Origin: Clostridiales bacterium | GTDB lineage: Bacteria; Bacillota; Clostridia; Christensenellales; Pumilibacteraceae | Length of the DNA: 64,000 bases | Assembly (NCBI GenBank): GCA_022511445.1 | Contig: JAFLVE010000011.1 | Span: 1-64,000, forward strand | Direction of reading: 5' to 3' | Part shown: one piece after another, positions 25,147 to 54,120 of the stretch | Position numbering within the stretch: the first letter of the stretch is position 1 | How the letters are laid out: each line of letters begins with the position of its first letter | Program-made: the position numbers and the translations under genes | Notes under the pieces: generated by a model | The model's input: the letters and a program-made list of their open reading frames with translations, nothing else | Database searches by the model: none | What the model was told of the DNA's origin: nothing

Positions 25147-25533
25147 ATGTTTTTGAGCCTTTCCCAACCGGTTATAATAACACTTGTCGTCGTAATTGCC
25201 GCGCAGTACGGCTTTGCGACGTTTTGCCTGATGAAGCTTGCGACTATCGATTTGCCGCGCAAAAACTACGCGCTGTGGAACGTGTTTATTATTCTCGTGT
25301 TTTTTATCGGCGGCATAGTTTTTCTTATCTATTATTCCAAGGTGAAGGAATCTTTGCGTATCCCGCCGTACGTGCCGACCGGCGAAAGCGAGGGCGGCGC
25401 CGACGCAGAAAACGCTACAATAGAGAACGAAAACGCCGAAGACTCGCGCGAGGATATTTTCGAGGAAGCGCCTTCGTCCGTAGACGGTGAGGATGGCGAC
25501 GGTAATGCCGACATTCCGGAAGGCGAGGCGTAA
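25147..25533 (+). CDS. Small two-TM membrane protein (PLDc_N-like) with acidic tail
   Basis: NYALWNVFIILVFFIGGIVFLIYY resembles PLDc_N segment. Confidence 0.6.
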   Translation: MFLSLSQPVIITLVVVIAAQYGFATFCLMKLATIDLPRKNYALWNVFIILVFFIGGIVFLIYYSKVKESLRIPPYVPTGESEGGADAENATIENENAEDSREDIFEEAPSSVDGEDGDGNADIPEGEA

Positions 25534-25635: not shown

Positions 25636-27657
25636 TTATATGTTAAGCTCCAGACCGTTTTCGTTTACGTACGAGCACCAGTTTCCGTTTTCGATTATTT
25701 CCTCGCGGGCAATCTCTTTAAAGAATTTTTCCTTTTCTCTCGGCGTGCGGTCTATCGCGTCTTCCCACCGCGTTACGGCGGCGGAGTAGAAGCGGAGCAT
25801 TCTTACGTTGTCGTCCGTTTTGCGGTCGAACGACAGCTTTCCCCAATAGCTCGACAGTAGGAGAGACGCCGCGGTGCCTATTCCGAGGATAATCGCTCCG
25901 ATGTTGCGCCAAGCTATATGTGCAAAAGCGATGTTTTCCCAAAACAAAGAGTAATTAAAAGCGTGGCATATATACGTAACAATCTCCAATCCCAATACCA
26001 AAGCGTACAGTCCGATTGCGATATACTTGAATATGTCGGACAGCTTTTTGTGGAGTTCGGACGTTTTTTTGTTGGGCGGCAATTTTCTGCTGTGGTAGTT
26101 TTCCTGCCCCTCGGGACCGCCTATTCCCTTATTGTTTCTTTCGAGCCATACAAACATTATTTTGTCTGCGTCGATATTAAGCTTGTGGGTTTCGTTGACT
26201 ACCGCGAGCGCCTGAATGGCTTTGTGGATCCACAGTATGCCTACTTTTTGAGTCCACGGGCATAAATCGCAGACGTTTGTAATTGTAATTTCCTCGTCTA
26301 TGCAAGAGGACAAGTAAAACTGTATTCTCAGCGCTTCCGCAAAGGTGCGGTACACGGTGTAGTATTTGTGGTATCCCCGTTGTCTTCCGATTCGGAGCAT
26401 GATTATTATTGCCACAATCGCGGCGGTGCAGGGGATTATCATAAACGGTAGCGCCGCGTCGTCGTAAATAAGGAAAAACAGCGCTACGGCGGTACCGAGT
26501 ATCGCGATAATAAATAGAATCCTGCTGTATGCGGCTTGGTGTACGCTGTACGAAAGATAGTCCGTCTTGGCGTAATGATAACAAAGGCTTTTTCTGTACT
26601 CGTCGAGCTCGGTTGTTTTTCCGTCGTCTATCCACAGTTTTTGAATTATCTTTTCCTCTTTAACGCCGCAAGATAGATTATTGTACTCGACCGTTTGGGC
26701 GATAAGCGTTTGAATGTACTCAGGCGGTTTTTCAGAAAAGGTGTAATATACCAATTTAGTGACGTCTTTTTCTTCTTTAACGTCGCTGCATGCTTGTTGG
26801 GCGGCGGAATCATCGTCTTCCTTAGGCTCGAGCGTTATTTTTATTTCCTTACGGTCTCTGTTTTCGGCTTTATCGGCAGGGACGGGATAGTTGTTTTCGG
26901 GGTCGGGCTTTTTTTCGAAATTTACTTCCGTATCCTCGTCCGCGTTTTTTGCTTTTTTATTAAGGAACTCTCTGTGTCCCTCTTTTTCTTTAACGGTCGG
27001 AACGTGCGCAATCATCCATTGCTTTTTGATTTCCCGTTCGGGCTGACCCTCTCTCCGCGCGTTTATGTAAATAACGGCGGCGGAATCGTTAACGGCGCCC
27101 GGCTTAAACATTCCGTCGTGGTCTAAATAATTGTGAGCCAAAGCGAATTTTATTACCTCTACCGTGCCGCAGCCGTATTGTTCCGAAGGAGACTTTCCAT
27201 CCCACAGCGCCAACAGTATGTGCGAGTGCTCGGCTATATATATGCCGGTCTGGCGGTATTCGTAGTTTTCACGGCTCAACTTCATAAAGTCCCGACACTG
27301 TTCGATATCGGGCGCGACAAATCGGCGCTTTGTTTTGGCGAGATTGGAGAGGAGGTTTTTTTTGTCGTCTCCGTCGTCAAAGCTATTAATGTACTCGTCC
27401 TCGGGTCGGGGGAGAACGGCGTACACGTCTATCCCCAGATCGAACGCCGCCTCGGCGCACAGCGTGTCGGCGCCTTGAGCAAAAGCGTTTAGCATAACGA
27501 TGGGCGTATCTTCTCCGCCCGATTTCGACTCGCAAAGCTTCTTGATTTCCTCGAGGCTTTCTATAATGCGCTTTTTTATTTCGGGCTTGTCCGCCTCGGC
27601 AATGTTTCTGTGACCCGTCACGCCCACTATAATCGGGATTTTTTCGCTTACAGGCAT
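25636..27657 (-). CDS. SLOG-domain plus multi-TM (SLATT-like) fusion protein
   Basis: N-terminal VGVTGHRNIAEADK...MLNAFAQGADTLCAEAAFDLGIDVYAVLP (SLOG-like); C-terminal hydrophobic hairpin pairs. Confidence 0.7.
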   Translation of the reverse strand: MPVSEKIPIIVGVTGHRNIAEADKPEIKKRIIESLEEIKKLCESKSGGEDTPIVMLNAFAQGADTLCAEAAFDLGIDVYAVLPRPEDEYINSFDDGDDKKNLLSNLAKTKRRFVAPDIEQCRDFMKLSRENYEYRQTGIYIAEHSHILLALWDGKSPSEQYGCGTVEVIKFALAHNYLDHDGMFKPGAVNDSAAVIYINARREGQPEREIKKQWMIAHVPTVKEKEGHREFLNKKAKNADEDTEVNFEKKPDPENNYPVPADKAENRDRKEIKITLEPKEDDDSAAQQACSDVKEEKDVTKLVYYTFSEKPPEYIQTLIAQTVEYNNLSCGVKEEKIIQKLWIDDGKTTELDEYRKSLCYHYAKTDYLSYSVHQAAYSRILFIIAILGTAVALFFLIYDDAALPFMIIPCTAAIVAIIIMLRIGRQRGYHKYYTVYRTFAEALRIQFYLSSCIDEEITITNVCDLCPWTQKVGILWIHKAIQALAVVNETHKLNIDADKIMFVWLERNNKGIGGPEGQENYHSRKLPPNKKTSELHKKLSDIFKYIAIGLYALVLGLEIVTYICHAFNYSLFWENIAFAHIAWRNIGAIILGIGTAASLLLSSYWGKLSFDRKTDDNVRMLRFYSAAVTRWEDAIDRTPREKEKFFKEIAREEIIENGNWCSYVNENGLELNI

Positions 27658-27977
27658 TATCCTACCTCTTGCTTTCGGTTTAGAGTTAGGGACATTATAT
27701 CACGCGTGGGGCTGTTTGTCAACCTTGCCGTTTTGCGGTGCGTTGACATATATACATATTAGCATTCGTGCGATAAAACCCCAAAAAACGGCTTCGGATT
27801 ACGTTATGTGTGCAATCGTGCATATATAAAATCGATTTACAAAGCGGATTTTTGACTTTTTCGCGAAAAATCCCCTTGAACGAAGGCCGCAATTGTGATA
27901 TACTGTATTATCGGACAGTAAAAGCGAGAGAAAGAATTCGAGTTAAGTTCGAGAATCTAAGGAATCAATCTGTTATT

Positions 27978-33990: not shown

Positions 33991-36900
33991 TTATAATCCG
34001 TACTGCCAGGGGTTGGAGGACGAGCCGGCAATCGGAAGCTCGCCGAGAAGCAGCGACATTATATCGGGGTAGGATACGTTTTTGCCTACGTCCTTTTTGT
34101 TGTTGTCGAGATACACGTCGTGGATCGTGTACGAGGTAAGACCTTTACTTTTAATCATTCTTATGCCTTCCTCGCTCGTATATTCCTGCACGTTCCTGAG
34201 CGTTGCCGTAAGGTCGATTTTCACGTTGGCGGCGGATACGCCTATCGCGCCCGTCGTTATTTGCGCCGCGGTTACATAGTTATCGAGTATGTTGTCGTCG
34301 CCGTCGTTTGCGCCTGTGAGCGATACCGTAATGTCGGATAGGGCGGTAGAGCCTGTAAGCTCCTTGAGCCCGACGGAAACGGTGTGCTTTGCGCCGTCGT
34401 AATCGTAGCCCTTGAACACCGTGGCTATCGTCGGGTTTTTGTCCGTTTCCTCCGTTGCGCTCTTTGCTACCTCGTCGATTATTACCTGCTGCATATTAAT
34501 TCCGAGTATGCTTGTGGAAAGGGGGACGAGTAAGAACAGGAAGTCGTTAAAGAAGGTCGTTAAGGTCGGATCGGCGAACATTGCGGAAAGGTCGTCGAGA
34601 GTGTAGACTCTGTACTCGCGCTTACAGTCGAAGAAGGACGTGCCGCCGATACCCCATAATCCGCCGCGCGTAACCTTTTCCCAGCTTCTTACGCCGTCTA
34701 TATAGATAAGGTCGTCGAAGAAGTAAAGCCTCGTCGTGCAATCGCCTACGGCTTGTTGCAGTACGATTTTGCAGTCATCGTAGATAAGCTCGACGAACGC
34801 CGCCGTCTTAACCTCCGGCTCGTCGTCCGTTACGGTAAGCCCCATAGCTCTGCGGTCGGATTTGGTAAGCAGCTTAACCTTTACGTTGTACTTAATGGAT
34901 ATAGAGTCGTTTATTATACCTATAAGCGAGAGCGAGAGCTTAATTCTGTCGCTCGTGCTGCCGCCGCCTATTTCGAACTCGGCAAGGTTGGCGGTGTTCA
35001 TTACGTCGAACAGAAGGTGTTTTATGTTGCCGAGGTCGGAATAGTCGACCTTTGCCTTGTATTGGTCCTTAGTGGGGATAGGGGACATCTCTACCGTGCC
35101 GCCGGCTACAAACTTAACGTCCATATCCACTCGCGCCGTCTTTGCGTCGAGGTTGGTTACCGAAACCTCGTTAAGCACGTTGCCGTCCGAGAATACTGCG
35201 ACTTTTGCGGTGCCGTCCGCGCCCGTCGTTATCTCGTTAGCAATATCCGCCCAAAGGTTGTTGTCCTCGTAGCCGAACGCAATGCCGCTGACAATGCGCT
35301 TAAACATGGACCCGTCGATAGCGGCGCCGACGTACTCCGATTCGTTATCGTCGTCTACGGAAATTCCGAACAGCTCGATTGCGTTGGCGATATGTCGTTT
35401 AACGTCGTCGAGCGAGTTTTTAAGTCCGTCGAAGCTTCCCGCGTTTGTTACAATATCCAGCGCGGACTTTACTTCGTCTAACGCCGCCGTAGCGTTATTA
35501 ATAGTGGAAGCCAAGTCGTTAAGAATAGTCTTTACTTTATCAAGCCCCACGATGTTCATGTACCCGAACACCGTCTTATCAATCGGCAAGCGGTACGGTC
35601 CGACAAGCGCCTCGACCGTCTCGTCGTCCACGCCGATTATATCCATGGCGGCGGCTACAATCTGCATTACCGACGTAAAGTCGATAGATACAAGCTCGCC
35701 GTAGCCGGTGCCGTTTTCCACGTATCCGAGGTAGGCGACGGGAGATTCGGGGTAGCGGTCGATTATGTAAAGGTCGATATCTATTACGCCCGTCGTGGAG
35801 GCGGCGGAGACCATGTCGAGCGAAATGTGCGCTTCGAGCGCTACGGAGAAGGTGCTCGATTCGTTTCCGCTTTCGTCCGTTTCTACGTGCTTTGTGAATT
35901 TGCCCTTAAGCGCGCTGTTCTCTCTTCCCGTAACCTTGATTGTGTCGGCGGGCTCTGTTTCGGTCGCGTACACGTCGTATGTGAAAGAGAACGACGGAAT
36001 GTCGAATGTTATCTCGTCCTTTTCGAGCGGGTTTACCGTCGTGAAGGTGGAAATAGCCATGTCCGCGACCTGAACGAATTCCATTACGGAAACGTACTGT
36101 CTGTCGTCGGGCGGGTAGATTGCCGTTTCCGTTGTATGCGATACTACGTCGGTCGCTTTAACGACTATGATCATTCCGAAAAGCTCGGTGGAAATTTCCG
36201 CGCCGACAAGCCGTAATTCGGTTGTCTCGTCGGTTTTAACTTCCGTAAGCAGCGGCGTTACCTTAAGCGTTATGCCCATTACCGTCGCGTGAATAACGGG
36301 GGTGCCGTCATATTCCGAAAGCTCTATCATGTCGAGCAGGGTGAGCGCCGCGCTCTTTCCGTGTAGCGCGCCGAGGTCGGTGAACAGCCCTTTGAATACG
36401 CTGTCGAAGGTGGGATTTTCCACCATTGCTTTTATGCGGTCCGCAATAAGCCCTATCTCGCTGAACGAGCTTGTGCCGTCGCCCAGCCCCAACAGGTTTT
36501 TAAGCTCCTCGGCAAGGTATGCGGGCAGGTATTTTTCGAGCACCGAGTAAATGCGCTCGATGTCGGCAGTCGTGTCGAAGGACAGGGCGATAGAGCCCGC
36601 TTCGATATAAATCACGCCGTCGACGAATGTTATCGTTACGTCCTGCGCCGCCTCCGTCGTGGAGAACAGAGTCACCGTTGCGCGGAGAGCTATTTTTTCG
36701 CCGAACGATACGGTAAGATTTTTGCAGGTAATGTCAACATAGTTGCCCGTCGACTTTTCGGTAAGCGACGCGTTGATGTCGAGCGACACAGTCTTTGCGT
36801 CGCCGTGTGTTTCTATAAGCGACAGGATAGGGGAAATAAGCTGCGAGTACGTCGCAATGCTTATACAGTTTTCTTTGGGTGATACGGACTGCCGAGCGAG

Positions 36901-39732
36901 GCTGTCCACCGAAACGGTGAAAGACGCGACCTCGTCAATATCAGCCGTAAGAGATTTAAGCGCGCCGTCCTCGCCGAGCGCGGTGATAATTTCCGCCGTA
37001 ACCGATTTTCCGAGCGCGTCGACGGTAAGCGACAGAGCGGTTAGGCCGCCGTCGAGCTTTATCTTTATTTGGGCGGCAAGCTCCGCTCCGACAGAGTTAA
37101 AGTCTGCGCCGAGCGTAAAACCGTCCTCCTCGGGTACGCCGTACAGCGCGCCGATTATATCGGAGATTTGGGCGGAAGAGAAAACGTTTATTAAATCGGT
37201 AATTGCGATAAGCGCGTCGCTTGTTTCGCTTCCGTTCGGTACCGCTTCCTTAATCTCGTTGATTAAAGAGTCGAGCTCGCCGTTTTCTATTCCGCACGAG
37301 ACCGAAATAGTGTCGGGAATAACTACGTACAGCACTCCGCCGGCAAGGGTTACGGATACTCCTTTTACGTCGGCGATATCGAGCTCGAGCGATAAGCCGA
37401 GGGAGTTTTCTCCGTCGGGCAGGGCGACGGTTATTCCGCCCACGATGGTGGCGCCGAGAAGGGTGCCGTTAAACGAAAGCTTATAGCCTTCGGCGGTCGC
37501 AAGGGGAAGCACCGCGTCCAATACGGTGGAAAGATTTTGCGCGGGGATAAACGCGCCGACAGGCTTTACGATTGCCTGCGAGCCGGCGGTCACATTTCCG
37601 AGATCGATACGTACGTTTGTGTTTTCTACGGTGAAGTTAAGCGCGGTGCGGGATAGGTCGGTATTCATATCGAGCTTGGCGGTTATTCCGTTTATATCGA
37701 GCTTGACGGAAATTATACCCTTGTTTACGCTTAGCTCTTTAATAGCGGATATTATCGATTCCGCCGTGTCTTTTACATCTATTTTGTCGAGCGAGGACAG
37801 CATTTCGCCTATGCCGCTCGGGAGAACGGGATCGAGCGAGGAAATTAGGCTGTTTAGTCCCGCTTCGTCGCACGATATTTTTATTCCGCCGAGCGTTATG
37901 TATACCGTGCCGTCCGTGTATACGACGGAAAGCGGGAAGTTTGTGCCGTCAAGCTTGACTGCAAGCCCGTTTTTGAATCCGAGCGAAAGCAGCGCGGACA
38001 GGGTGAAGTCTCCCGCCGATATGGATATCGGCGCGGACAAGCCTTTCGCCCTGACTACGTCCAGCACTTTTTCGAGCATTGCGGTAAGGTCGTTGATATC
38101 TATTTTCTTTTCGCCCGGGGTGTCGAGTAGGTCGGACACAATGTCGAGCGCACCCGAAATATCTTTGTAGCTGTCGTCTACCGCGGGGAACTCGGTCGAT
38201 TTAGGTACGGCGCTGATTTCAATCATCGTGCCGTTAAGGTTGATTGAGGCGGTGACGGCGTTAAGCTTCATTCCGTCGCCTATTATAAGCGCCGCGTCTA
38301 CGTCGACGCCGTCGGTAAGCGAGAAGGGAATACGAACGGTCGTTAAATCGCCGTCGGTCGTCATCTCGCAGTTGCTCATTACCGTGCCGAGAATGTCGTC
38401 GCCCAATAGGTTGTCGAAGTCGAGTTCGCCGAGCAGCGAGCTTAATGCTTCGTGCTTGAGAAGGGCTTTTGCTTTGTCTGTCGATATGTAACCTTTTAAG
38501 TTATTTGCGGAGACGTACAGCCTGTCGCCGCCGTACTGAACGAACAGCGCGCCCAGCTTGGCTTTGATCACCATTGTGTCGAGGTTTACCGATATGTTGA
38601 GCGCGCCGCCTACGTCCTTGCCGTTTATCGCTATATTGGCTTCGAGGTCGAGATCCTTGCCCGCAAGGTAGGGTCCGAACGCCTCGGCGAGGTAGTCCGA
38701 CGGTCCGAGCGTGGAGGGGAGGTCGCCTTCGGTAACGTCGGCGTTAAAATGATTGGAAAAGAAGTCGTACTCCGGAATTTCGCCGTCCTTGTCGATATCC
38801 GTAAAAGTCTCGGTGAGCGACGACCGCATCGTCATCACTCCCAAAAACGACATCGAGGGAATGGATATCTCGTACGTCTCGTTGGATTCGACGGAGATAG
38901 GATACCAGTTTTCGTCTATCGTAAAGGAAAGCTTTACCGACTTAAACGAGATGTAATTAGCGCCCGCGAGCGTCATTACCTCGTTGCGGTAGAACTTTGT
39001 AGCTCCGTCGGGATCGAGATTAAGCGTAAACCTGTAATAGCCGTCGTCGCCTTGCATGAGCTTTTCGGGTACTTCTAAAAGAACGCCGTCATCTTCTCCG
39101 TCCGAATTTGCCGCGGGTTTGACTAAGGCGTTGTCGTCCTGTATGGACTGAATTACTTCGGTGTTTATTATGTGCTTTGTTATCTCGTTGGGGATAACGC
39201 CGTAGCTTGAATAAAAGTCGTCAAGCCCCATCCTACTGCATTTGTCCGAGAACGTGGCGACTCCGTCTCCCACCTTGGTGGCGGGGCGGTACAGTATCGT
39301 ATCCTTGCCCGCGAAAAACTTTTGCTCGCCGACGCTCTTGAGCGTGGAGGAAGAAATCGCCTCGGCAAAAATATAGCCTCCCTTTACGACGCGTATGTTG
39401 TGTACGTTTTGAAGATGCTTAATAAGTCCTACGTCGGAAATGACGGTGCCTATCGTTTCGCCTTTAAAGTAGCTCGAGGAATAGATTCTTTCCGCCGCGT
39501 AGGAAAGGCTTTCCAGCGCGTTGTGGTCGGACGGGCGCGAGCCGTCGGTGGGAACTGCGGTGTGCATTATATTGGGAGTGTCGCCGTCGGGGACGTAAAC
39601 GGTCGTCCCGTCCATTGCGCTCATGGAAAATCCCATAAGCACAAACAAAGCGGCTATTGTCAAAAGTATAAATATTATGGAAAGATGCCTTCTCGAAAAC
39701 GGCGCTCTTTTTTTAATAAGCGGTCTTGCCAT
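33991..39732 (-). CDS. Very large (1913 aa) N-terminally membrane-anchored protein with repeated beta-rich modules; unknown function
   Basis: Single N-terminal TM (HLSIIFILLTIAALFVLMGFS); recurring (D)G-x-[LVI]Y[VI] modules near residues 405, 610, 801 and 1041. Confidence 0.85.
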   Translation of the reverse strand: MARPLIKKRAPFSRRHLSIIFILLTIAALFVLMGFSMSAMDGTTVYVPDGDTPNIMHTAVPTDGSRPSDHNALESLSYAAERIYSSSYFKGETIGTVISDVGLIKHLQNVHNIRVVKGGYIFAEAISSSTLKSVGEQKFFAGKDTILYRPATKVGDGVATFSDKCSRMGLDDFYSSYGVIPNEITKHIINTEVIQSIQDDNALVKPAANSDGEDDGVLLEVPEKLMQGDDGYYRFTLNLDPDGATKFYRNEVMTLAGANYISFKSVKLSFTIDENWYPISVESNETYEISIPSMSFLGVMTMRSSLTETFTDIDKDGEIPEYDFFSNHFNADVTEGDLPSTLGPSDYLAEAFGPYLAGKDLDLEANIAINGKDVGGALNISVNLDTMVIKAKLGALFVQYGGDRLYVSANNLKGYISTDKAKALLKHEALSSLLGELDFDNLLGDDILGTVMSNCEMTTDGDLTTVRIPFSLTDGVDVDAALIIGDGMKLNAVTASINLNGTMIEISAVPKSTEFPAVDDSYKDISGALDIVSDLLDTPGEKKIDINDLTAMLEKVLDVVRAKGLSAPISISAGDFTLSALLSLGFKNGLAVKLDGTNFPLSVVYTDGTVYITLGGIKISCDEAGLNSLISSLDPVLPSGIGEMLSSLDKIDVKDTAESIISAIKELSVNKGIISVKLDINGITAKLDMNTDLSRTALNFTVENTNVRIDLGNVTAGSQAIVKPVGAFIPAQNLSTVLDAVLPLATAEGYKLSFNGTLLGATIVGGITVALPDGENSLGLSLELDIADVKGVSVTLAGGVLYVVIPDTISVSCGIENGELDSLINEIKEAVPNGSETSDALIAITDLINVFSSAQISDIIGALYGVPEEDGFTLGADFNSVGAELAAQIKIKLDGGLTALSLTVDALGKSVTAEIITALGEDGALKSLTADIDEVASFTVSVDSLARQSVSPKENCISIATYSQLISPILSLIETHGDAKTVSLDINASLTEKSTGNYVDITCKNLTVSFGEKIALRATVTLFSTTEAAQDVTITFVDGVIYIEAGSIALSFDTTADIERIYSVLEKYLPAYLAEELKNLLGLGDGTSSFSEIGLIADRIKAMVENPTFDSVFKGLFTDLGALHGKSAALTLLDMIELSEYDGTPVIHATVMGITLKVTPLLTEVKTDETTELRLVGAEISTELFGMIIVVKATDVVSHTTETAIYPPDDRQYVSVMEFVQVADMAISTFTTVNPLEKDEITFDIPSFSFTYDVYATETEPADTIKVTGRENSALKGKFTKHVETDESGNESSTFSVALEAHISLDMVSAASTTGVIDIDLYIIDRYPESPVAYLGYVENGTGYGELVSIDFTSVMQIVAAAMDIIGVDDETVEALVGPYRLPIDKTVFGYMNIVGLDKVKTILNDLASTINNATAALDEVKSALDIVTNAGSFDGLKNSLDDVKRHIANAIELFGISVDDDNESEYVGAAIDGSMFKRIVSGIAFGYEDNNLWADIANEITTGADGTAKVAVFSDGNVLNEVSVTNLDAKTARVDMDVKFVAGGTVEMSPIPTKDQYKAKVDYSDLGNIKHLLFDVMNTANLAEFEIGGGSTSDRIKLSLSLIGIINDSISIKYNVKVKLLTKSDRRAMGLTVTDDEPEVKTAAFVELIYDDCKIVLQQAVGDCTTRLYFFDDLIYIDGVRSWEKVTRGGLWGIGGTSFFDCKREYRVYTLDDLSAMFADPTLTTFFNDFLFLLVPLSTSILGINMQQVIIDEVAKSATEETDKNPTIATVFKGYDYDGAKHTVSVGLKELTGSTALSDITVSLTGANDGDDNILDNYVTAAQITTGAIGVSAANVKIDLTATLRNVQEYTSEEGIRMIKSKGLTSYTIHDVYLDNNKKDVGKNVSYPDIMSLLLGELPIAGSSSNPWQYGL

Positions 39733-51651: not shown

Positions 51652-54120
51652 ATGGCCAAAAAGAAAAAACCCGTTATGACTTTAGCCGACTACTTAAGCG
51701 AGGAGGGTAACCTCGAAAAGGAATTGAAAGCGCAAGAAAGCCTCGAAGAGGACGAGGATTTCGATCCGAGCATGTTTGCGGGCGTCGTTTCGCTCGAGGA
51801 TTTGCTCGAGGGCGACAGCGAGGTAAGGTATCTTACGCTCGATAATCTCGGAAGCTTATTCGTCGAGCTTAAGGTGAAATCGAAAGACGGCAGGACTTCC
51901 GTGCGCCGACCCAAGGTGTACTTTTCGGCGTACAGGGACGATTACGACAAATACTTCGACCTTATTACGGACGCCGTTGCCGACGAGCTTAACTGCGATA
52001 TTTATTACCTCGAAAAAAACGCCGAGGTGGGGGGCGGGGAGGCTATTTCACAGCGCATTTCGGAGATGAGTCTTTTCGTATTTCCCGTCACACAAAAACT
52101 GCTCTCGTACGACGGGCGCGTTCTCGACGTGGAGCTTAAGGCGGCTATGGAGTACGGCGTTCCCATTATGCCTGTATACATAGACGGCGATATAAACGAG
52201 TTTAACGAAAAGGTGGGGCACTACGAGGTGATTAAATACTCCGCGCCCGATTTTAAGGACAAGCTGAATAAGTTTATAAACAACACTCTGTTCGGCGGCG
52301 AGGACATAAAAAAGATAGAGGGCGAGTTCACCTCCGGCATATTCTTAAGCTACCGTAAAAAAGACGTCGATCACGCCCGCAGGCTTATAAATGTTTTGCG
52401 CCGCGACAGCGAGCTTGACGACGTTGTCATCTGGTACGACAACTATCTTACCGTCGGCGAGGACTATAACGAGGAGATTGCTTCCGCGCTTTCGTCGTGC
52501 GATTTGTTTGCGCTTCTCGTAACGCCCAATCTCGTCGGCGAGGAAAACTACGTGTCCAAGATAGAATACCCCTCCGCCTCCCGCGAAGGCAAAAAGGTGT
52601 TTGCGGTGGAGGCGGTGCCGTCCGACCGTAAGCTTTTGGAAAAGAACTACGCAGGCGATTACCCCGTGTTTTCGCTTGGCGACAAAGCGCTTACGGAATA
52701 TGTAAAGTCCAATCTTAAAAGTGAGCTCGCTTCCGCTCCGCACACGCCCGAGCACAAATACTTTGTCGGCTTGGCGTACTATTTCGGCGTAAAGGTGGAG
52801 GTGAATAGGTCGCTTGGCGGTAGACTGCTACTGGAGAGTGCGGACGAGGGGCATATCCCCGCGCTTATAAGAGTGCTGTCCGTGCGCCGCTACAATCCCG
52901 ATCTTATCGACGACGACAAGCTTATAGAGCTTTGCGAGCGCGCGCTCGCTGCACTCGAAAAGGGCGGGAAGATTAAAGACTCCGACAGCTACGAGGCGAT
53001 TGCCGACAGCCTTGTAAGCGAGTACATAACGAGCTACCAAACGGAAAAAGCGGAGGCGCTTATCGTTAAGATCCTCGGTCTGGTGGAAAAAGCGCCGAGT
53101 CGCCGCGTTACCTATTACGAAAAGTATGCGCGGCTGTACTTCAGGCTTGCCTCCGCGCTCGAAATACGCGGCAGGTACAAGGACGCCGAGCTTTACGCCG
53201 ATTTTGCGCTCGAATACGCGGAAAAGATTTTGGAGTCGGACGTTGCCGATGCGCCCGACGCGCTTTACTACCGCATTCTCGGCGCGGTCGCCTCCGCTAA
53301 GACCAAGTGCGGCAAAACCGACGGCGCGGCGGAGATTTTGGAAAAGGCGAAAAAACGGTTTAACCGCGGCGGCGTAAAAACGAGCGATGACGAAAAGCTC
53401 GCTTACGCGCAGTTTGCGGTTAGCTATGCAACCGCGCTGTACCAAACCGGCAATCCCAACGAGGCGCTCGACCTTGCGTTCGAGACCGAAAAAATGCTCT
53501 CCGCGCTTACCAAAACCGACCTTGTTACCGACACGCTCGCGTCGGTGTACGAAATATTGGGCACGGTGTACTTTACATACGCCAACGGCGATCATAACCT
53601 TCTTAACGCCGCGCTCCACTACCTGGAAAAGGCTGTCGACACCGTCGAGCTGATTAAGGATATGAGTCCGGACGGCAAGGCGCTTCGCAGGGCTAAGTAC
53701 GGGCTTAACTACGGCGCGGCGCTCTCGCAGTGCAATATAGGCGAGGAGGCGGTAAGCGTTTTATGTGACGTTATAGACGCGTGCAAAGACGCCTACTTTG
53801 ACGGCGGGCAAAAATACCTGCTTATAAAAGAGGCGGTCGGCGCTCTCGCTATCGAGCTTGTATCGCAAAAGAAGTACGCCGAAGCGATAGAATACTACGA
53901 CGAGTTTTTCGCGCTCGTCCGAAGGGATGAGATTTCGTCGCCCTCGCAATACTACGACTGTGCGAACTTTTCCTACCGCGCCGCGTACATCTACGTTAAC
54001 ATGATAAAAGACAGGGCGGGCGCGGAAACGTATATCGACAAGGCGTTGGAGTTTATCGGACTTTGCGACATAACCGACGACAACGTCGTATCGCTGTATC
54101 ACTCCGTTAAGGCGCTGTAA
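51652..54120 (+). CDS. Tandem TIR-like domains plus Sel1/TPR-type helical repeats
   Basis: First TIR-like KVYFSAYRDDYDKYFDLITDAVADEL...; second TIR SGIFLSYRKKDVDHARRLINVLRRDSELDDVVIWYDNYLTVGEDYNEEIASALSSCDLFALLVTPNLV; TPR-like C-terminus. Confidence 0.8.
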   Translation: MAKKKKPVMTLADYLSEEGNLEKELKAQESLEEDEDFDPSMFAGVVSLEDLLEGDSEVRYLTLDNLGSLFVELKVKSKDGRTSVRRPKVYFSAYRDDYDKYFDLITDAVADELNCDIYYLEKNAEVGGGEAISQRISEMSLFVFPVTQKLLSYDGRVLDVELKAAMEYGVPIMPVYIDGDINEFNEKVGHYEVIKYSAPDFKDKLNKFINNTLFGGEDIKKIEGEFTSGIFLSYRKKDVDHARRLINVLRRDSELDDVVIWYDNYLTVGEDYNEEIASALSSCDLFALLVTPNLVGEENYVSKIEYPSASREGKKVFAVEAVPSDRKLLEKNYAGDYPVFSLGDKALTEYVKSNLKSELASAPHTPEHKYFVGLAYYFGVKVEVNRSLGGRLLLESADEGHIPALIRVLSVRRYNPDLIDDDKLIELCERALAALEKGGKIKDSDSYEAIADSLVSEYITSYQTEKAEALIVKILGLVEKAPSRRVTYYEKYARLYFRLASALEIRGRYKDAELYADFALEYAEKILESDVADAPDALYYRILGAVASAKTKCGKTDGAAEILEKAKKRFNRGGVKTSDDEKLAYAQFAVSYATALYQTGNPNEALDLAFETEKMLSALTKTDLVTDTLASVYEILGTVYFTYANGDHNLLNAALHYLEKAVDTVELIKDMSPDGKALRRAKYGLNYGAALSQCNIGEEAVSVLCDVIDACKDAYFDGGQKYLLIKEAVGALAIELVSQKKYAEAIEYYDEFFALVRRDEISSPSQYYDCANFSYRAAYIYVNMIKDRAGAETYIDKALEFIGLCDITDDNVVSLYHSVKAL

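Follow-up and report, generated by a model that had tools for sequence, protein, structure and literature searches.

An orphan SLOG–SLATT fusion gene in a Clostridiales genome and the association of its relatives with RyR and TIR genes

The sequence analysed here (the window) is a stretch of 64,000 nucleotides from contig JAFLVE010000011.1 of a Clostridiales gut bacterium of the family Pumilibacteraceae. It carries a gene that begins with ATG and encodes a 673-residue protein (ORF analysis), in which an N-terminal SLOG domain is joined through a charged linker to a membrane half (Table 1). The reading frame given in the initial annotation was recovered exactly, and the hydrophobic stretches that it quoted are present; hydropathy resolves two hairpins. 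The GC content of the gene is 0.48 compared with about 0.51 for the window. The promoter ends approximately 37 bp ahead of the ATG in the window, and its TTGACA-N17-TATAAT arrangement is kept in the sister genome G018 despite an altered spacer sequence.

Table 1. Features of the SLOG–SLATT fusion gene and its start region (window coordinates).
Feature	Position	Strand	Evidence
SLOG–SLATT fusion gene	25636..27657, stop included	-	ORF, orthologue, purifying selection
SLOG domain, residues ~1–205; motifs GVTGHR, AxGxD, LP, WDG, GT	27043..27657	-	YAcAr in relatives, fold match, invariant residues
Charged linker, residues 206–345	26623..27042	-	alignment
First SLATT-type (DUF4231) unit, residues 346–460	26278..26622	-	DUF4231 in relatives, hydropathy
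TM1, residues 380-398	26464–26520	-	hydropathy
TM2, residues 403-421	26395–26451	-	hydropathy
Second hairpin (residues 500–673), probably also a SLATT unit	25639..26160	-	hydropathy, weak repeat signal
TM3, residues ~542-564	25966–26034	-	hydropathy
TM4, residues 586-604	25846–25902	-	hydropathy
Sigma-70 consensus promoter TTGACA-17-TATAAT, TG extension	27694..27722	-	sequence; conserved in sister
AGAGG, probable ribosome-binding site	27665..27669	-	by eye

The orthologue in G018 (JAFLVD010000003.1) is full length and syntenic, with an amino acid identity of 0.735 (~73%). The two copies differ with a dN/dS of 0.15 at a dS of ~1.2, which indicates that the window copy has been kept up rather than left to decay. 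Since the orthologue is syntenic and full length, dN/dS is low and the promoter is common to both species, we regard the fusion as a genuine gene and exclude a chance ORF. Identity between the sisters is 82% in the SLATT part and 70% in the SLOG part, and falls to just 49% in linker residues 211–310; the alignment also showed that most relatives have a far shorter linker than the window lineage. A pattern scan of contigs for the fusion matched the sister genome only, and the full-length fusion was found in ~4% of the 396 genomes of the order. The family alignment was built from 21 full-length relatives, and the linkage counts given below refer to 20 fusion genomes.

The assignment of both domains rests on relatives and on structure because the window protein alone remained below threshold in every profile library. 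Profile searches for SLOG and SLATT, of the kind that the initial annotation had proposed, gave matches for both in the relatives. YAcAr, a Pfam SLOG family, was matched by six of the 21 (best 7e-6), whereas the window protein by itself matched no SLOG family, and neither it nor the family profile found a match among PDB sequences. A model of residues 1–215 (pLDDT 76, about 90 in the core) provided all of the structural evidence; a full-length AlphaFold model made from a two-sequence alignment reached a pLDDT of 36 and was not used. The best PDB match of the partial model was YpsA (2nx2, E 5e-9, probability 1.00), with further matches to DprA, ShosA, LOG/MoCo carrier proteins and TRPM channels, including an ADPR-bound structure of TRPM2, a channel activated by ADPR. 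A weak match to the ThsA SLOG domain bound to 3'cADPR was also obtained (E 0.01). Residues A60, G62, D64, A68, P83, W152, G154 and G164 are invariant across the 21 relatives. By its predicted fold and the family profile the domain belongs to the YpsA/YAcAr branch of the SLOG superfamily, in agreement with the initial annotation, whose quoted motifs are present.

DUF4231 was matched by 12 of the 21 relatives (best 6e-8) and, over the cut-off, by a Caballeronia relative; it reached a sub-threshold E-value of 0.014 in the window protein, in which SLATT_1 gave 0.058. The invariant residues of the membrane half are R437, E441, R444, Q518 and W660, the first three of which lie on a helix within the first SLATT unit. 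The first hairpin, followed by this helix and matched by DUF4231 in relatives, is thus SLATT-type by sequence, as had been claimed for the whole C-terminus. The second hairpin is probably SLATT as well, to judge from a SLATT_1 match at 0.008 in one relative and a weak profile comparison between the hairpins (E 0.027). PADLOC placed the window protein in no defence family and gave scattered weak matches to KwaA, a 2TM effector and ShosA in the relatives. Matches to DUF2207_C, DUF4153 and Lipase_GDSL_3 were judged to be hydrophobic or chance hits.

The neighbours of the fusion are a small unassigned gene at 25147–25533 and a divergent cation-efflux-like gene followed by mnmA (names assigned by eye). 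In 11 congeners the same two flanking genes are separated by 86–652 bp that hold no fusion. G006 and G010, both among the 11, have a fusion at another site, downstream of an sbcC-like gene (named by eye). The window fusion entered a housekeeping block as a single gene, and the empty site together with the copies in G006 and G010 indicates that fusions enter differing sites within the genus. No integrase was visible at the window insertion. The gene had been described as stand-alone, and indeed no signal-making gene lies within ~20 kb of it. The window genome has three TIR matches, two of them over the cut-off, including an 822-residue TIR–TPR protein at 51652–54120 on the plus strand (TIR_2 E 3e-9). 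Many genomes of the genus have TIR ORFs of ~820 residues, which may represent a core TIR protein. At 33991–39732, on the minus strand, the window also encodes a 1,913-residue protein that matched no Pfam family at 1e-3.

The surroundings of the relatives are of a different kind. Profile searches of the 20 fusion genomes, counting matches over the cut-off, found a RyR gene (PF02026) adjoining the fusion at a distance of 14–639 bp in nine genomes, where 0.02 would be expected; these make up nine of all 11 RyR matches in the set. TIR_2 was found within 10 kb of the fusion for 12 of 43 matches, in 10 of the 20 genomes (expected 0.4). The Poisson tails of both counts overstate independence, as four of the 20 genomes (four species) belong to one genus; the RyR-linked loci come from about six genera and the TIR-linked loci likewise. 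Three more fusion neighbours end in RyR-like sequence that was below threshold or unscored, and in one further genome, G309, the RyR gene at the fusion locus has a DUF4062 gene beside it; DUF4062 serves antiphage defence as a NADase resembling TIR (PMC13174449). Outside the order, a Caballeronia plasmid carries a SLOG–DUF4231 gene followed by a TIR gene. An IMG/VR contig has a RyR gene followed by the fusion and, on the opposite strand, a TIR gene; a first scan of viral sequences for the fusion gave no match, and other scans were likewise empty. In congeners, related SLOG domains are fused behind a RyR domain, and one such gene adjoins a TIR gene. The fusion tree gave no single history of the orphan and RyR-linked states, its long branches making deep placements unsure.

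The linkage of relatives to RyR, TIR and DUF4062 genes makes the fusion look like the effector component of a multi-gene system. The initial annotation had proposed a compact one-gene system, and the neighbourhood analysis of homologues that it called for does not support this. Sensor and effector do appear to be joined in one polypeptide, as it had stated, except that the sensor is better understood as a sensor of a signal than of the phage. Our proposal, which we hold somewhat better than even, is that the fusion is a membrane effector of NAD-derived, Thoeris-like signalling and that the orphan is signalled in trans. The fusion is most likely one piece of a TIR/RyR system rather than self-contained, and probably a membrane "suicide" effector opened by a signal. 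A TIR (or DUF4062) enzyme would make an ADPR-type signal after infection, and the cytosolic SLOG domain would bind it. Binding would cause the paired SLATT hairpins to oligomerise or to change conformation, and these would then permeabilise the inner membrane and stop the infected cell. At related loci the adjacent RyR protein may bind, buffer or remove the same signal. In the window lineage the effector would have parted from its partner genes and would be transcribed from its own strong promoter, the signal being supplied by a TIR protein encoded elsewhere. Several findings count against this proposal: no RyR gene was found in the window genome, no TIR gene lies within ~24 kb of the fusion, the nearest TIR protein belongs to a size class found across the genus, fusion-free genomes included, PADLOC assigned the window protein to no defence family, and four of the species behind the linkage counts are of a single genus. 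A bolder version, which we put forward tentatively and rate below even, is that TIR (or DUF4062), RyR and SLOG–SLATT form a distinct immune class in which a host RyR binder or eraser sets the threshold of the pore and orphans eavesdrop on unlinked TIR signals.

A true one-gene system, in which the SLOG domain senses an infection or stress metabolite (NAD, ADPR or nucleotides) and gates the SLATT part with no dedicated enzyme, is unlikely in our estimation. The window gene stands alone, is under purifying selection in two species behind a conserved private promoter, and entered its site as a single gene; moreover, the fusions of G010, G006 and G046 have neither RyR nor TIR genes nearby. Most relatives are, however, linked to RyR or TIR, which suggests an enzyme-made signal, and TIR genes are present in trans. 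The TRPM N-terminal SLOG structures among the fold matches, together with a strong promoter suggestive of constitutive expression, would also suit a non-immune membrane regulator or nucleotide-gated ion channel of TRPM-like logic, responding for example to osmotic or redox stress. We consider this improbable, as patchy presence, varied insertion sites within one genus and linkage to TIR, RyR, DUF4062 and NACHT are all typical of conflict genes.

Two further explanations have less in their favour. If the SLOG domain were itself an enzyme, a LOG-like phosphoribohydrolase for which the SLATT part is a mere anchor, the GTxE sequence resembling that of LOG enzymes, which the window protein has kept in the alignment, would be accounted for, and the superfamily does include enzymes. 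The LOG-type glutamate (E167) is, however, kept in 11 and replaced in 10 of the 21 relatives, which favours a binder over a catalyst, and the SLATT half is the better conserved between the sisters; catalysis is therefore a very doubtful reading. That the gene is a stranded remnant with no present function we regard as the most improbable case. No partner gene lies in its vicinity, but the frame is intact, and the dN/dS of 0.15 at a dS of ~1.2 and the conserved promoter argue that the orphan is functional.

Among known systems, the favoured effector reading finds a close parallel in Thoeris ThsA (SIR2-SLOG and TM-macro forms; PMC11204291), where a nucleotide-sensing domain is likewise fused to an abortive effector with TIR partners, one ThsA class having SLOG and the other a TM effector. 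The TM-macro form is thought to work through nucleotide-induced clustering of its TM domains (PMC11204291). The fusion differs in coupling SLOG to TM hairpins instead of SIR2, in a SLOG domain nearest to YpsA/YAcAr and not to ThsA, and in the RyR partner of its relatives. An adjacent TIR gene (ThsB) is lacking at the window gene and has a counterpart within 10 kb at 10 of 20 related loci, and profile searches found neither SIR2 nor macro domains in the fusion or its relatives. With SLATT/DUF4231 2TM effectors, predicted to be nucleotide-responsive membrane pores (PMC7159879) and including the SLATT gene required for phage defence by DRT10 (PMC12632851), the fusion shares a 2TM hairpin followed by a conserved helix; it differs in probably having two tandem hairpins, covalently joined to SLOG. 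YpsA/YAcAr proteins (cpYpsA-related) are its closest SLOG relatives by profile and fold, yet YpsA is soluble and stand-alone whereas the fusion carries TM hairpins. TRPM channels offer an analogy of logic only, a SLOG fold gating a membrane channel (predicted in the case of the fusion), as their TM part is unrelated. RyDEP and other RyR R12-domain proteins of phages, which cleave, degrade or sequester 2'/3'cADPR (PMC13232231), represent the domain type of the neighbour in nine of the 20 genomes; the known ones are phage counter-defence, whereas those linked to the fusion are host-side and stand beside the effector.

Coupling between SLOG and SLATT is implied by the name of the latter (SMODS and SLOG-associating 2TM effector). 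It was reportedly foreseen in 2015 by Burroughs et al., who are said to have predicted nucleotide-gated SLATT pores. The fusion with its RyR/TIR linkage is a variant on this earlier prediction. Our literature search, which covered mostly open-access papers, found no paper on a TIR–RyR–SLOG–SLATT locus and no signal assigned to a SLOG–SLATT protein. The conserved pairing with RyR and TIR points to ADPR and cADPR isomers as candidate ligands and to RyR as a candidate eraser, and the single-gene insertions suggest that such effectors can spread without a signal enzyme. There is also a parallel with animal channels that bear SLOG (TRPM) and RyR domains.

Several minor observations were made on related loci. 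As annotated, the Caballeronia DUF4231 gene (L017:3860-5773) starts too late to include the in-frame GVTGHR of its SLOG domain. A viral contig encodes a 708-residue SLOG protein (L125:2959-5085) beside an amidase lysis gene; its TM hairpins were recognised by eye, and its TM part has no Pfam match. Related single-domain SLOG proteins without SLATT lie in clusters with TIR and caspase-family genes on rhizobial and Methylorubrum plasmids (L018, L020 and L021), one of them a Ti plasmid. At L098/L099 the fusion has as its neighbour a TrkA_N–RyR protein whose N-terminus includes a hydrophobic stretch and which may be a second membrane component. Scattered through the order is a family of proteins of ~750 residues that begin with an HD-like region (by eye), contain a RyR or RyR-like domain and end in a SLOG domain (L033/L100, L009, L010, L027 and L028); its member in G005 lies directly upstream of the fusion, and that in G007 is followed by a TIR–LRR_5 gene.
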